A DNA stretch of 64,000 nucleotides from Sulfuricurvum sp. (lineage in GTDB: Bacteria > Campylobacterota > Campylobacteria > Campylobacterales > Sulfurimonadaceae), in contig JAUYUB010000001.1 in NCBI GenBank assembly GCA_030692765.1, positions 1-64,000 of the forward strand. Reading direction: 5' to 3'. A model generated the notes under the pieces. The model had not been told where the DNA came from. It did not search any database and saw only the letters and a list, made by a program, of their open reading frames with translations. This document shows, piece after piece, positions 1 through 3,940 of this stretch (positions within the stretch are counted from its first letter, which is position 1; every line of letters starts with the position of its first letter). The translations under genes were made by a program, and so were the position numbers.

Positions 1-153
1 TTTATAAAGATATTTATCCTGACCAAAATCAATATAAATACCATTGGTATCTTTATCGATTTTGTTGATTCTAGGCTTGAATGCCTCATCAGGCTGAAGA
101 AAACCGACTCCAAAAACAGCCATAGAAAAAAATATTAAAAATAAAAATCGCAT
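1..153 (-). CDS. dsbD: DsbD-type thiol:disulfide interchange protein, N-terminal fragment (runs off left edge)
   Basis: The first 51 codons of a minus-strand gene are visible; the rest lies beyond position 1. The protein opens with a hydrophobic signal peptide (MRFLFLIFFSMAVFG), then FLQPDEAFKP and a stretch ending DFGQDKYLYK. That pattern matches the start of the periplasmic N-terminal domain of DsbD, which receives electrons from the cytoplasm and reduces periplasmic disulfides. The ATG at 151-153 follows a purine-rich GGGTAGG site, which supports this start. The catalytic cysteines and membrane part are outside the window, so the family call rests on the N-terminal motif alone. It lies downstream of the hvf-like cluster on the same strand, about 90 nt away. 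Confidence 0.6.
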   Translation of the reverse strand, partial: MRFLFLIFFSMAVFGVGFLQPDEAFKPRINKIDKDTNGIYIDFGQDKYLYK

Positions 154-222
154 TACCTACCCTTTGATTACTTACAATGCGTTATTTTAGCATACGTTAG
201 TATAAGAACTGTAAAGTTGATG

Positions 223-237
223 ATTAACAATGTTAAT
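223..237. promoter_or_regulatory. Short palindrome between the DoxX gene and the dsbD-like gene
   Basis: ATTAAC and GTTAAT form a perfect 6-bp inverted repeat around AAT. It sits 5 nt past the DoxX stop codon and about 70 nt upstream of the dsbD-like start. It could be a weak transcript end for the four-gene cluster or an operator for the downstream gene. No U-run follows on the minus strand, so an operator fits slightly better. Short AT-rich palindromes are common by chance. Confidence 0.25.
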
Positions 238-242
238 GATTT

Positions 243-662
243 TTATTCTTTTTTCAAAAAATAATCCACACCAAACTTTCCACCACCATGTGTGGCCAGA
301 GTAAACAACATCAATAGGTAATACAATGGTATTTCAAATCCACTGTCTCCCGCAGAAAATCCGTTTGCCAAATGAACCGTTGTTATTGCCACTATCATAA
401 CCACCATCAAAGGTAATGCTATCAATCGTACACCAAGTCCCAATACCAGTAAAACTACGCCAGCCATCTCTGTTGATGCTGCCATATAGGCATTTAATAA
501 TGGAAATGGGATCCCTAAGTCCTGCTCAAACCATGTGGCAACAGCACCGATATCCGCCCATTTATTCATAGCAGGTGAATAAAAACCATACGCTAAAATA
601 AGACGTAATAACAACAAAGCCAAGTCTTGTCCTTCGTTAAACAACATTCCGATCTTTTTCAT
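243..662 (-). CDS. DoxX family membrane protein (HvfD-like)
   Basis: This 139-residue protein is strongly hydrophobic with about four membrane helices. The motif LRLILAYGFYSPAMNKW near residue 20 and the GVVLLVLGLGVRLIALPL segment are typical of DoxX proteins. DoxX proteins are small inner-membrane proteins, often tied to redox or metal stress; the exact activity is unknown. Here it is the last gene of a cluster with a Cys-rich precursor, a MNIO oxidase and its partner, 1 nt after the partner gene. In described MNIO clusters a DoxX gene (called HvfD in Haemophilus) occupies the same place, so a role in export or membrane handling of the modified peptide is inferred. Confidence 0.8.
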   Translation of the reverse strand: MKKIGMLFNEGQDLALLLLRLILAYGFYSPAMNKWADIGAVATWFEQDLGIPFPLLNAYMAASTEMAGVVLLVLGLGVRLIALPLMVVMIVAITTVHLANGFSAGDSGFEIPLYYLLMLFTLATHGGGKFGVDYFLKKE

Positions 663-663
663 T

Positions 664-1362
664 TTACACCTCCGTAAATTTGATTAACACACGTTGATTA
701 CACCATTTTTCCACTAATATTCTAACGCTTTGACGTAATGTCTCAACATCCAGTTCATACATCTCAGCCAAAGTACTAACGGCACTTTCGAGTGTCAAAT
801 TCTCCAGTTTTTCTACCAACTGTTGTGCAAATGGGGTTATCTCTTCAAAATAGACCCGTTTTTCATCGAAATGGTAGTAAAGCAGCAATGAAGATACACA
901 GGGTGATTCAAACTCACCGGTATGCACTTTATAACTAAGATTTCGCAGCAATGATGAGGATGAGAGTTTATAGTGTTGACTCCACTCTAGCCGTGCATGA
1001 GTATCGTTAAAATCTCTGCTTAATAGCTCTAATTCACCGTATTCGAACCACAATAAGTCTTCCAAAAAGAGAGTCGATGTCAGTTTAGGATGATGGCGTA
1101 AGAAATGTCCGAACTCTTCTGCCATTTTTGTTATGAACGGGCTTTTGGCACCAGAAGAAATAAACTCACATACGAGCTCATTCATCAACTCTGCCCCTAA
1201 TTTGGCAGATAGAATCGGATAAATATTTTCAAGTGTTTCAAAAAATCGAAAATACACCATATCGCGGTACACTTGCAATCGATTATTCAAGGGGTTTGAT
1301 ATCTCCTCATTGTTTTGAATGATTTGAACTAAACGCTCCATAACTGCCGTTTCGGTTTTCAT
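664..1362 (-). CDS. hvfC: MNIO partner protein, DUF2063 / HvfC-BufC family
   Basis: The protein has 232 residues. Its N-terminal half (about 5-95) shows the DUF2063 pattern: MERLVQIIQN, RLQVYRDMVYFRFFETLENIYPI, then a helical segment ending FLRHHPKL. This family was once called putative DNA-binding, but in MNIO systems it is the partner that helps the oxidase recognise the precursor leader. The start codon overlaps the hvfB stop as ATGA, so translation is probably coupled. The middle part contains WFEYGELELLSRDF, also typical of the family. The C-terminal 100 residues are less conserved and may form the second domain seen in BufC proteins. Confidence 0.82.
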   Translation of the reverse strand: MKTETAVMERLVQIIQNNEEISNPLNNRLQVYRDMVYFRFFETLENIYPILSAKLGAELMNELVCEFISSGAKSPFITKMAEEFGHFLRHHPKLTSTLFLEDLLWFEYGELELLSRDFNDTHARLEWSQHYKLSSSSLLRNLSYKVHTGEFESPCVSSLLLYYHFDEKRVYFEEITPFAQQLVEKLENLTLESAVSTLAEMYELDVETLRQSVRILVEKWCNQRVLIKFTEV

Positions 1363-2180
1363 TTTACACTTCTCTTAGCAACGATTTTACTGAGTTTTTT
1401 ATACTCTTTCATCAACTCGTGCAAAGGGGGAATGTTGTTATCCCGTTCGATCATCACAGGTGCATCTATTTTTTTAAGAGTTCGCTCCAACAGCTTCCAC
1501 ACATTCTTTGTAATAGCTTCACCATGGGTATCCAGTAGCAAAACTTCATCAGGATATTCAAGATGCCCTGCGATGTGCATGTATGCCACACGTGACGGTG
1601 ATATTTGAGCAATGTACTGATCGGGATCAAATCCATGATTGGCTGCATTGACATACACATTATTGACATCCAATAACAGCTTGGTATCAGCGTACTGCGC
1701 TATTTCATTGATAAAGTCCGCTTCAGCCATCTCACTGTAGGGCGTCAAATAATAGCTCGCATTTTCCAAGATCAATGGACGCTGTAAAAAATCCTCCACA
1801 TGTTTGATCTTATCTCCAATGTGTATGACCATCGCACGTGTCATCGGCAATGGAAGCAGTTCATATGTCTGCATCCCTCCCAACGTTGAAAAACTCAAAT
1901 GCTCCGAATAGTGCTCAATGTTGTAGCGATCCAAAAAAGCCTTAATTTCGCTCAAAAAACTTTTGTCGATCGCTTCGGGTGAACCGATGGAAAGTGATAC
2001 ACCATGAGCGACTACGGGCATTGAATCCATAATCTGCTCAAAAGTTTCACGATAACGATGTGGGGTGAAAATCCAATTTTCAGGGGTGATTTCGATCCAG
2101 TCGGGCTTTTTTTTTAAACTGCTAAAGTCTTCCAAAAATTCCCGACGTAATCCCAAGCCACACCCTGTGATAGTATTCAT
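1359..2180 (-). CDS. hvfB: MNIO family oxidase (DUF692, HvfB/BufB-like), modifies Cys-rich precursor peptide
   Basis: This is a 273-residue TIM-barrel metalloenzyme of the DUF692 (MNIO) family. These enzymes use two or three iron ions and O2 to modify cysteines of ribosomal peptides, giving for example oxazolone-thioamide groups. Likely metal-binding segments visible are ENWIF, VAHGVSLSIGS, YSEHLSF, LENASYYL, DVNNVYVNAANHG, MHIAGH, DTHGEA and IERDNN. I chose the ATG at 2178-2180 over the TTG at 2186 because AAAGG lies about 9 nt before the ATG but only 3 nt before the TTG. It starts 12 nt after the precursor gene. A run of nine A residues encodes three Lys near the N-terminus. Confidence 0.88.
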   Translation of the reverse strand: MNTITGCGLGLRREFLEDFSSLKKKPDWIEITPENWIFTPHRYRETFEQIMDSMPVVAHGVSLSIGSPEAIDKSFLSEIKAFLDRYNIEHYSEHLSFSTLGGMQTYELLPLPMTRAMVIHIGDKIKHVEDFLQRPLILENASYYLTPYSEMAEADFINEIAQYADTKLLLDVNNVYVNAANHGFDPDQYIAQISPSRVAYMHIAGHLEYPDEVLLLDTHGEAITKNVWKLLERTLKKIDAPVMIERDNNIPPLHELMKEYKKLSKIVAKRSVK

Positions 2181-2192
2181 CCCCAAATACCT

Positions 2193-2456
2193 TTACTTTT
2201 TAGCACCACATTTTGCTTCTGCTGCTTTTTCTTTTGCTGCTTTCTCTTTTGCTGTACCACATTTTGCTTCTGCTGCTTTCTCTTTTGCTGCACCACATTT
2301 GCCATCTGCAGCTTTCTCTAGCATTTTTGCGTTATCTTTTTTTGCCCCGCCACATTTACCAGCACCGCATTTTGCAGCTGCTTCATTAGCCATTGCCATT
2401 GGAGCACTCATTAATGATGCACCTAGTACGAGTGCTGCTACTTCTTTTTTTGCCAT
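2193..2456 (-). CDS. hvfA: Cys-rich RiPP precursor with repeated KCG motifs (HvfA/bufferin-like)
   Basis: The 87-residue product has a signal peptide (LVLGASLMSAPMAMA, likely cut after residue 23) and a Lys/Ala-rich mature part. It carries five cysteines at 30, 35, 54, 66 and 83, each in the context KCG. This matches the HvfA-type precursors (repeated GKCG units) whose cysteines are modified by the MNIO enzyme encoded next door. The mature peptide would be periplasmic and is likely to bind copper, as shown for related bufferins and oxazolone-thioamide peptides. It is first in the operon. The spacing of the last three KCG units (12 and 17 residues) reflects internal duplication. Confidence 0.82.
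   Translation of the reverse strand: MAKKEVAALVLGASLMSAPMAMANEAAAKCGAGKCGGAKKDNAKMLEKAADGKCGAAKEKAAEAKCGTAKEKAAKEKAAEAKCGAKK
2205..2290. repeat. Direct repeat inside the precursor gene
   Basis: A 35-nt unit starting ACCACATTTTGCTTCTGCTG occurs at 2205-2239 and again at 2256-2290 with one mismatch. The copies are offset by 51 nt, exactly 17 codons, so gain or loss of a unit keeps the frame and changes the number of KCG motifs. Confidence 0.7.
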
Positions 2457-2611
2457 TTTAAATCCTTTTATTTTGTTATTCGTTGTTAAGTATACACCAA
2501 TAATATTAATAAAATGTAAATAATCATATTTATTTAATTACTCAGTAAATAAGAAGTTAGACTCAAAAATGCTACACTATCGTATACTTCACAGAAATAC
2601 CAAGGAAAAAA

Positions 2612-2977
2612 ATGGCATATATTAATTTAACAAAAGAAACATTCAATGAGACCCTCGACAATAATGAAATAGTCATCATCGACTTTTGGGCAGAGTGGTG
2701 TGCCCCCTGTAAACAATTTGCCCCTATTTTTGAGAAGGTGGCAGAAAATAATCCCGACATTACCTTTGCAAAGGTTAATACAGAGGATGAGCAAGCCCTT
2801 GCAATGCGATACAACATTCAATCGATTCCAACACTCATGGTAACCAGAGATGGCATTATCTTGCTCAATCAAGGAGGGATGCTTCCGGAAGAAGCCTTTG
2901 ATAAGCTTATTAAACACGTTAAGGGACTTGATATGGACAAGATACGTGAAGAAATTGCGCAAGAAGAACAAGAATAG
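2612..2977 (+). CDS. Thioredoxin family protein
   Basis: This 121-residue protein has a thioredoxin fold. The active site WCAPC is at residues 29-33, the buried Asp at 24 (IDFWAEW), and the cis-Pro at SIPTL near residue 75. There is no signal peptide, so it acts in the cytoplasm as a dithiol reductant. CAPC differs from the CGPC of classical TrxA, and an acidic tail (EEIAQEEQE) follows the fold, so it is a dedicated paralogue rather than the main thioredoxin. AAGGA sits 6 nt before the ATG. It reads into the PPK2 gene 21 nt downstream, which suggests cotranscription. Confidence 0.9.
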   Translation: MAYINLTKETFNETLDNNEIVIIDFWAEWCAPCKQFAPIFEKVAENNPDITFAKVNTEDEQALAMRYNIQSIPTLMVTRDGIILLNQGGMLPEEAFDKLIKHVKGLDMDKIREEIAQEEQE

Positions 2978-2998
2978 GCACCACCATTAGGAGATCGT

Positions 2999-3940
2999 AT
3001 GCATGCAAAAGGTTCAATGGCCAGAGTTGAAATAGCCGAAACAGAAAAATTAGAAGACATTGTTCATTCAGACCGTCGCAAGAGCACTGAAGAAAACGCA
3101 GCTGAACACAAAAAGCGTGGGAGTAAAGAAGAGCGTCTTCCTCTTTGGATTAAAAAATCCGTTTTAGAATATGAATCACAGCTCAAAGATTTGCAAATTG
3201 AACTGCTAAAACTTCAAAATCATGTCAAAGACAAGGGACTTAAGGTTCTCATGATTTTTGAAGGGCGTGATGCCGCAGGAAAAGGGGGCACGATCAAGCG
3301 CATTACAGAGCATCTCAATCCCCGTGGTGCACGTGTCGTGGCATTGGACAAGCCCTCTGATGTGGAAAAAACTCAGTGGTATTTTCAGCGCTACACGACC
3401 CATCTCCCAAGTGCAGGTGAAATCGTACTGTTTGACCGCAGCTGGTACAACCGTGGAGGCGTTGAACCTGTTATGGGATTTTGTACTCCTCAAGAGCATC
3501 AGGAGTTCCTCGATGAAGTGAGTTCGTTTGAAAAGATGTTGGTCAACTCTGGGATCATCATCTTTAAGTTTTATTTTTCAGTTTCCAAAAAAGAGCAAGC
3601 TGCACGATTTAAACAACGTAAGACCGACCCGCTTAAACAATTTAAACTGTCACCTGTCGATGCAAAATCCCAAGACTTATGGGACAAATACACTACAGTG
3701 AAACACTCAATGTTACGTGCATCCCACACAGGTACAGCCCCATGGATCATCATCCGCTCAGATGATAAGAAAAAAGCCCGTATAAACTGTATCAAACATA
3801 TCTTATCAAACATTCAATATCCGAGAAAAAGTTCAATTGATCTCAAAACATCCAAAAGGATTCTTAGTTGGGGCGACGAAGAAATAAAACTAATGGAAAC
3901 CCATGCTTCATCAAGTATCAACGAAAATATTTCAAAATAA
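2999..3940 (+). CDS. ppk2: Polyphosphate kinase 2 (PPK2 family)
   Basis: This 313-residue kinase transfers phosphate between polyphosphate and nucleotides. The P-loop GRDAAGKGGT is at residues 89-98, followed by the ARVVALDKPS segment and the lid region FDRSWYNRGGVEPVMGF. WYFQRY and KFYFSVSKKEQAARF are also conserved PPK2 signatures. Length and a single PPK2 domain fit class I enzymes. The first 45 residues are charged and poorly conserved. AGGAG ends 5-6 nt before the ATG, which supports this start over the internal Met at residue 7. It sits between a thioredoxin and a SulP transporter, with only 12 nt to the latter. Confidence 0.92.
   Translation: MHAKGSMARVEIAETEKLEDIVHSDRRKSTEENAAEHKKRGSKEERLPLWIKKSVLEYESQLKDLQIELLKLQNHVKDKGLKVLMIFEGRDAAGKGGTIKRITEHLNPRGARVVALDKPSDVEKTQWYFQRYTTHLPSAGEIVLFDRSWYNRGGVEPVMGFCTPQEHQEFLDEVSSFEKMLVNSGIIIFKFYFSVSKKEQAARFKQRKTDPLKQFKLSPVDAKSQDLWDKYTTVKHSMLRASHTGTAPWIIIRSDDKKKARINCIKHILSNIQYPRKSSIDLKTSKRILSWGDEEIKLMETHASSSINENISK

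Follow-up and report, generated by a model that had tools for sequence, protein, structure and literature searches.

The analysed window, which spans the opening 64 kb of contig C13 in a 2.15-Mb Sulfuricurvum genome, carries a complete gene set A-B-C-D of a sulfur-oxidising Campylobacterota bacterium, with all four genes on the minus strand from 2456 to 243. We read this cluster, with a probability of roughly 0.85, as a captophorin RiPP operon whose product would be a secreted thiooxazole peptide buffering Cu(I) in the periplasm. The cluster belongs to the HvfABCX (oxazolin, "captophorin") class and, within it, to the Lys-Cys/EGKCG branch, not to Buf1 or Buf2. It is no new kind of system, and its differences in peptide and enzyme are small and lineage-specific. 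The features of the locus are as follows.

2193..2456, minus strand: gene A, RiPP precursor, HvfA-like, 87 aa (NCBIfam NF050137, 25.6 bits vs 19.5)
1359..2180, minus strand: gene B, MNIO (DUF692) oxidase, 273 aa (PF05114, conserved ligand motifs, predicted fold similar to 3bww)
664..1362, minus strand: gene C, DUF2063/PME1 partner with a C-terminal RRE fold (PF09836 and PF22106 over cut-off; model best match 3dee)
243..662, minus strand: gene D, HvfX-family DoxX membrane protein (NF050144, 126 bits vs 80)
2488..2500, minus strand: tentative candidate promoter element upstream of A (upstream-region alignment)
1..153, minus strand: N-terminus of dsbD, cut at the contig end; a neighbour outside the cluster (65-76% identity to the full DsbD of relatives)
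2612..2977, plus strand: thioredoxin gene, divergent neighbour, context only (TIGR01068, 108 bits vs 96.8)

A and B are separated by 12 bases, the B and C genes share 4 bases and C and D are 1 base apart. Coordinates, minus strand and family profiles all agree with the four-gene MNIO operon that the first-pass annotation had placed at 243-2456. The order A-B-C-D is kept in five of the six cluster-bearing Sulfuricurvum genomes, the exception being L007, which is without D. DoxX is thus not a constant part of the cluster; it was also absent from the stretch examined at each of the nine loci of one branch in another family.

Three features of the class are present: an MNIO with conserved metal-binding and catalytic residues, an adjoining PME1 protein with an RRE and a signal-peptide-like precursor with KCG repeats. 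B matched PF05114 with 312 bits (cut-off 25). It starts at the ATG at 2180, with an in-frame TTG at 2186. Its DxNN, DxH and ERD motifs are conserved and correspond to the sites of HvfB N175, D242 and H244 and of the catalytic Asp (FonB D249), whose functional roles were reported previously (PMC13419390, PMC12668002). The model of B (pLDDT 87.5) was structurally most similar to the Histophilus MNIO 3bww (Z 28.8, rmsd 1.9, 239 aligned residues), followed by TglH and MbnB (MbnABC 7dz9, Z 25.8). C exceeded the cut-offs for DUF2063 (41.6 vs 27.2) and NGO1945_C (27.4 vs 27), and the best match of its predicted structure (pLDDT 86.6) was 3dee, which is NGO1945 (Z 17.2, rmsd 3.0, 196 aligned residues), the partner protein of the gonophorin system (PMC12668002). 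Next came the MNIO partner TglI and stand-alone leader-binding RREs of RiPP pathways. D was recognized both as DoxX (61.5 vs 23.6) and as NCBIfam HvfX.

Among the NCBIfam Hvf models, only the HvfA-family domain (25.6 vs 19.5) and HvfX (126 vs 80) were passed. The strict equivalog scores stayed below cut-off for HvfA (23.7 vs 95), HvfB (321.6 vs 360) and HvfC (84.7 vs 142), so that the cluster is a relative of Hvf and not a strict ortholog. A gave no match to DUF2282 in the profile search and contains no Cys-Lys motifs, and the pocket of B holds Asn and not the Asp of Buf2-type enzymes. In the phylogenetic tree, all 30 sampled Campylobacterota MNIOs formed one clade (support 100/98). This clade, B included, lies beside the Lys-Cys (HvfB-type) enzymes and apart from those of Buf1- and Buf2-type, a sister relation that is loosely placed because it depends on only two Lys-Cys outsiders and a long-branch Acidobacteriota row. 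The earlier assignment to an HvfABCD/bufferin type is therefore narrowed by profiles, residues and tree: its HvfABCD half stands and its bufferin half, in the sense of Buf1 or Buf2, falls.

The start of A (MAKKEVAALVLGASLMSAPMAMA; residues 1-23) resembles a signal peptide, judged by sequence from a charged n-region, a hydrophobic core and an AMA-N site. The remaining 64 residues are rich in Ala and Lys. All five cysteines lie in KCG, as had been noticed at first reading, and none of 200,000 shuffles of A's own residues equalled this number. The first two form the only C-x4-C pair (KCGAGKCG), while the three remaining cysteines each stand in a lone KCG, at distances of 12-19 residues. Compared with the EGKCG tandem consensus, A thus keeps KCG throughout and the tandem spacing in the first pair only. 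Other Sulfuricurvum peptides are built similarly: the first two or three cysteines are five residues apart, as in EGKCG repeats, and most later ones are 12-27 apart. Across 22 Campylobacterota precursors with 145 cysteines, Gly follows in 139 cases and Lys precedes in 118, and the first motif position is Ala in 49, Asp in 43 and Glu in only 12. The HvfA-family domain model matched all 20 aligned Campylobacterota precursors. A search of the whole genome with the HvfA domain gave zero matches and also missed the known copy, A.

For the related FonBC enzyme it was reported that a single-repeat substrate is left unmodified, a two-repeat substrate is modified and most substitutions are tolerated (PMC12668002). 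Given the mostly spaced single motifs of A, modification may thus be partial. B might then act only on a subset of cysteines, namely the N-terminal KCGAGKCG pair, leaving the spaced KCG motifs as free thiols in a mixed thiooxazole/thiol peptide that nearby DsbD and thioredoxin-type proteins would keep reduced. Such a division of the peptide would suit the preference of FonBC for two repeats over one, the single early C-x4-C pair or triplet followed by mostly spaced KCG in the Sulfuricurvum peptides, and the thioredoxin-fold genes around the cluster. Nevertheless, we regard it as rather doubtful: all five motifs have Lys before and Gly after the Cys, as expected if all of them are substrates, FonBC tolerates Ala at the Glu position of the motif, and the thiol-related neighbours are present without the cluster too.

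Phe250 of FonB touches the substrate around the modified Cys. This site is Asn in B and in 30/30 Campylobacterota enzymes, and likewise in one Acidobacteriota enzyme; it is Phe in 3bww, in HvfB and in the Moraxella enzyme, whereas three Buf2-type enzymes have Asp there. The pocket Phe is typical of a branch and does not define the class, and Asn weakens a strict HvfB identity but not class membership. This distribution, with its consistent Asn, is also what could be put forward for a different Cys modification caused by the exchange of Phe. Such a change in chemistry appears highly improbable, since the FonB variants F250A and F250D remain active and yield a product absorbing at about 305 nm that is consistent with 5-thiooxazole (PMC12668002). 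The unchanged product argues that the Phe250 site tunes the choice of substrate and not the reaction; together with the substitution tolerance of FonBC, it leads us to expect the same reaction with a shifted substrate preference.

Two further deviations were seen in related clusters. At L035 (2300-2560, minus strand), the precursor beside intact MNIO and DUF2063 genes contains just one Cys (..ADGKHATSKCG), as if the substrate had decayed and the enzymes had been kept. At L026, L028-L034 and L037, which belong to one branch of another family, the second Arg of the MNIO (the site of FonB Arg16) is Ser and about half of the cysteines lie in SCG or ACG and not in KCG, so that enzyme and motif changes co-occur.

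Every characterised MNIO-PME1 system makes 5-thiooxazole, and binding of Cu is the general rule among them (PMC12668002); the modification of oxazolin (HvfA) has been re-assigned to 5-thiooxazole (PMC12668002, PMC13419390). From these relatives, 5-thiooxazole is the product to expect of this cluster. Of the two groups initially proposed, oxazolone-thioamide or thiooxazole, the former is outdated by this revision and not expected here, and the latter is the form that relationship predicts.

For the mechanism, gene content and order, family, conserved catalytic residues, the predicted folds of B and C and the lineage distribution were observed; from characterised relatives we infer RRE-guided modification, Sec export, copper binding and a role in stress, and regulation of the cluster is presumed. 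A would be made in the cytoplasm, where C may bind it through its RRE domain and present it to B. B, an iron oxidase, would use O2 to convert the KCG cysteines to 5-thiooxazole groups, with a predicted loss of four H (about 4 Da) per Cys, or about 20 Da should all five be converted. Export by Sec and removal of the signal peptide would follow, and the mature peptide would bind Cu(I) in the periplasm and so act as a buffer against copper excess or related thiophilic-metal and oxidative stress. In this scheme, D (DoxX) is an accessory membrane protein.

No copper regulator, transporter or exporter was found beside the cluster, and a Cu P-type ATPase is encoded on another contig. This lack of an adjoining copper gene could mean that not copper but a different soft metal is bound, or that the peptide serves in the response to sulfide or oxidative stress, which would fit the sulfur-oxidising host. 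Such pathways are often induced by an excess of heavy metals in general (PMC12668002), and DoxX has been linked to oxidative or sulfur stress and MerC-bufferin fusions have been discussed (PMC12452194). Against these points stands the binding of Cu(I) by the characterised members, and we consider a role other than copper buffering unlikely.

Upstream of A, a candidate promoter element reads TTGGTGTATACTT in the window and TTGATATATACT or TTAATATATACT in five relatives; it is tentative because a generic sigma-70 scan did not list 2488..2500. A CueR/CsoR-type operator was not established: GTTAAC-like elements are common to the upstream regions of relatives but do not occur in the corresponding region of the window. 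About 80 bases before dsbD, the palindrome TTAACA[CT]TGTTAA or TTAACATGGTTAA occurs in the window (154-242) and at L004, L005, L008, L043 and L065, and TTAACAATGTT is present upstream of dsbD in many cluster-free relatives. The palindrome is a candidate operator.

As contig C13 ends at base 1, the window contains only the first 51 codons of dsbD (153-1). In relatives, a full dsbD with recognizable DsbD domains is located directly downstream of the cluster. The distribution of the two differs clearly: dsbD is present in 40/41 Sulfuricurvum genomes and the cluster in 6/41. Among 24 cluster-free loci, a yyaL/DUF255 gene with a thioredoxin domain lies divergently beside dsbD in 15, and the gap between yyaL and dsbD is about 130 bp in the clearest cases. 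At L004 the cluster sits exactly between yyaL and dsbD, and 24 bases in its upstream region are identical to the yyaL-dsbD gap of the cluster-free arrangement; they are probably the yyaL promoter. A promoter-like sequence of the TGCTAAAAT type precedes dsbD and is of the same kind whether the cluster is there or not. On the simplest interpretation, a resident thiol-redox locus has either gained the cluster by insertion or lost it, and the link to dsbD is therefore positional. Since cluster-free genomes keep yyaL beside dsbD with its own promoter-like sequence (TGCTAAAAT), dsbD was ruled out as a core component. A dsbD-like gene is thus indeed the next gene on the same strand, as annotated at first, but it is not part of the cluster; a functional link may exist.

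The beginning of contig C9 (C9:3-1808) encodes most of a DsbD, and its overlap with dsbD of the window (1-153) is similar and not identical, which suggests a strain mixture or a second copy. A simple join of C13 and C9 through dsbD was discarded for these non-identical ends. Contig C4 of the same genome ends (L003:4276-4795) in a divergent second precursor of 78 aa, with four KCG motifs plus one KCA, and behind it the start of an MNIO. Over 80 residues this MNIO start is 55% identical to B, and its last 24 bases up to the contig end contain two in-frame TAG codons. A second DUF2063 gene was not found. The C4 locus is possibly a decayed paralogous cluster or a contig-end error.

A plasmid origin of the cluster was rejected, as positions 1-3000 of the window gave no DNA match in the plasmid collection; the best plasmid-borne protein relative, from Moraxella, is 46% identical. 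On the 11-kb Moraxella plasmid NZ_CP135142.1 (L073, 1-5459), a six-KCG precursor and an MNIO are encoded, an IS4 element separates the MNIO and DUF2063 genes, and DoxX is divergent. Viral carriage was likewise rejected, no relative having been found in viral contigs.

Counting MNIOs above the Pfam cut-off, as was also done for the 6/41 Sulfuricurvum genomes, the family was detected in 26 of the 397 genomes of the phylum that were sampled, and thus is not rare in Campylobacterota. Published work on these peptides concerns mainly Pseudomonadota. The literature searched, the main MNIO papers included, described no member from Campylobacterota, and to that extent the first-pass view of the product as uncharacterised in this phylum holds; the supplementary tables of two large surveys (PMC12452194, PMC12668002) could well include Campylobacterota genomes. 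The Campylobacterota set (26/397 genomes) offers, as a natural series, precursors that carry 4-10 Cys in paired or spaced arrangement, combined with a fixed change in the enzyme pocket. Thus, what an MNIO needs around the modified Cys becomes testable without designed variants. We tentatively raise the possibility, itself some way short of even odds, that Campylobacterota hold a distinct captophorin sub-branch, in which one Asn-pocket MNIO clade is matched to Glu-poor, often singly spaced [A/D][G/A]KCG motifs, and that in Sulfuricurvum, where the cluster lies in a resident thiol-redox locus (thioredoxin-family gene by dsbD), thiooxazole peptide and periplasmic thiol reduction may cooperate.

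Among known systems, HvfABCX/oxazolin of nontypeable Haemophilus influenzae shares the precursor-MNIO-DUF2063-DoxX set, the secreted KCG-repeat precursor, the enzyme folds and the catalytic residues. The Sulfuricurvum cluster differs from it by [A/D][G/A]KCG in place of EGKCG, by mostly spaced single motifs, by Asn for Phe in the pocket and by sequences under the strict Hvf equivalog cut-offs. Gonophorin (ngo) and fontiphorin (fon) have in common with it an MNIO, a PME1 protein and a KCG precursor, and the fold of the partner is nearest to NgoC (3DEE); their characterised hosts, however, are Pseudomonadota and their products are proven 5-thiooxazoles. With the bufferins Buf1 (DUF2282) and Buf2 (Cys-Lys), the cluster shares the operon logic and, as proposed here, a copper-stress role, whereas A is neither DUF2282 nor Cys-Lys and B falls outside both MNIO groups in the tree. 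Methanobactin MbnABC, finally, resembles it in the MNIO fold (7dz9, Z 25.8) and in acting on Cys, but makes oxazolone-thioamide, employs another partner family, serves copper acquisition and starts from a precursor without a signal peptide.
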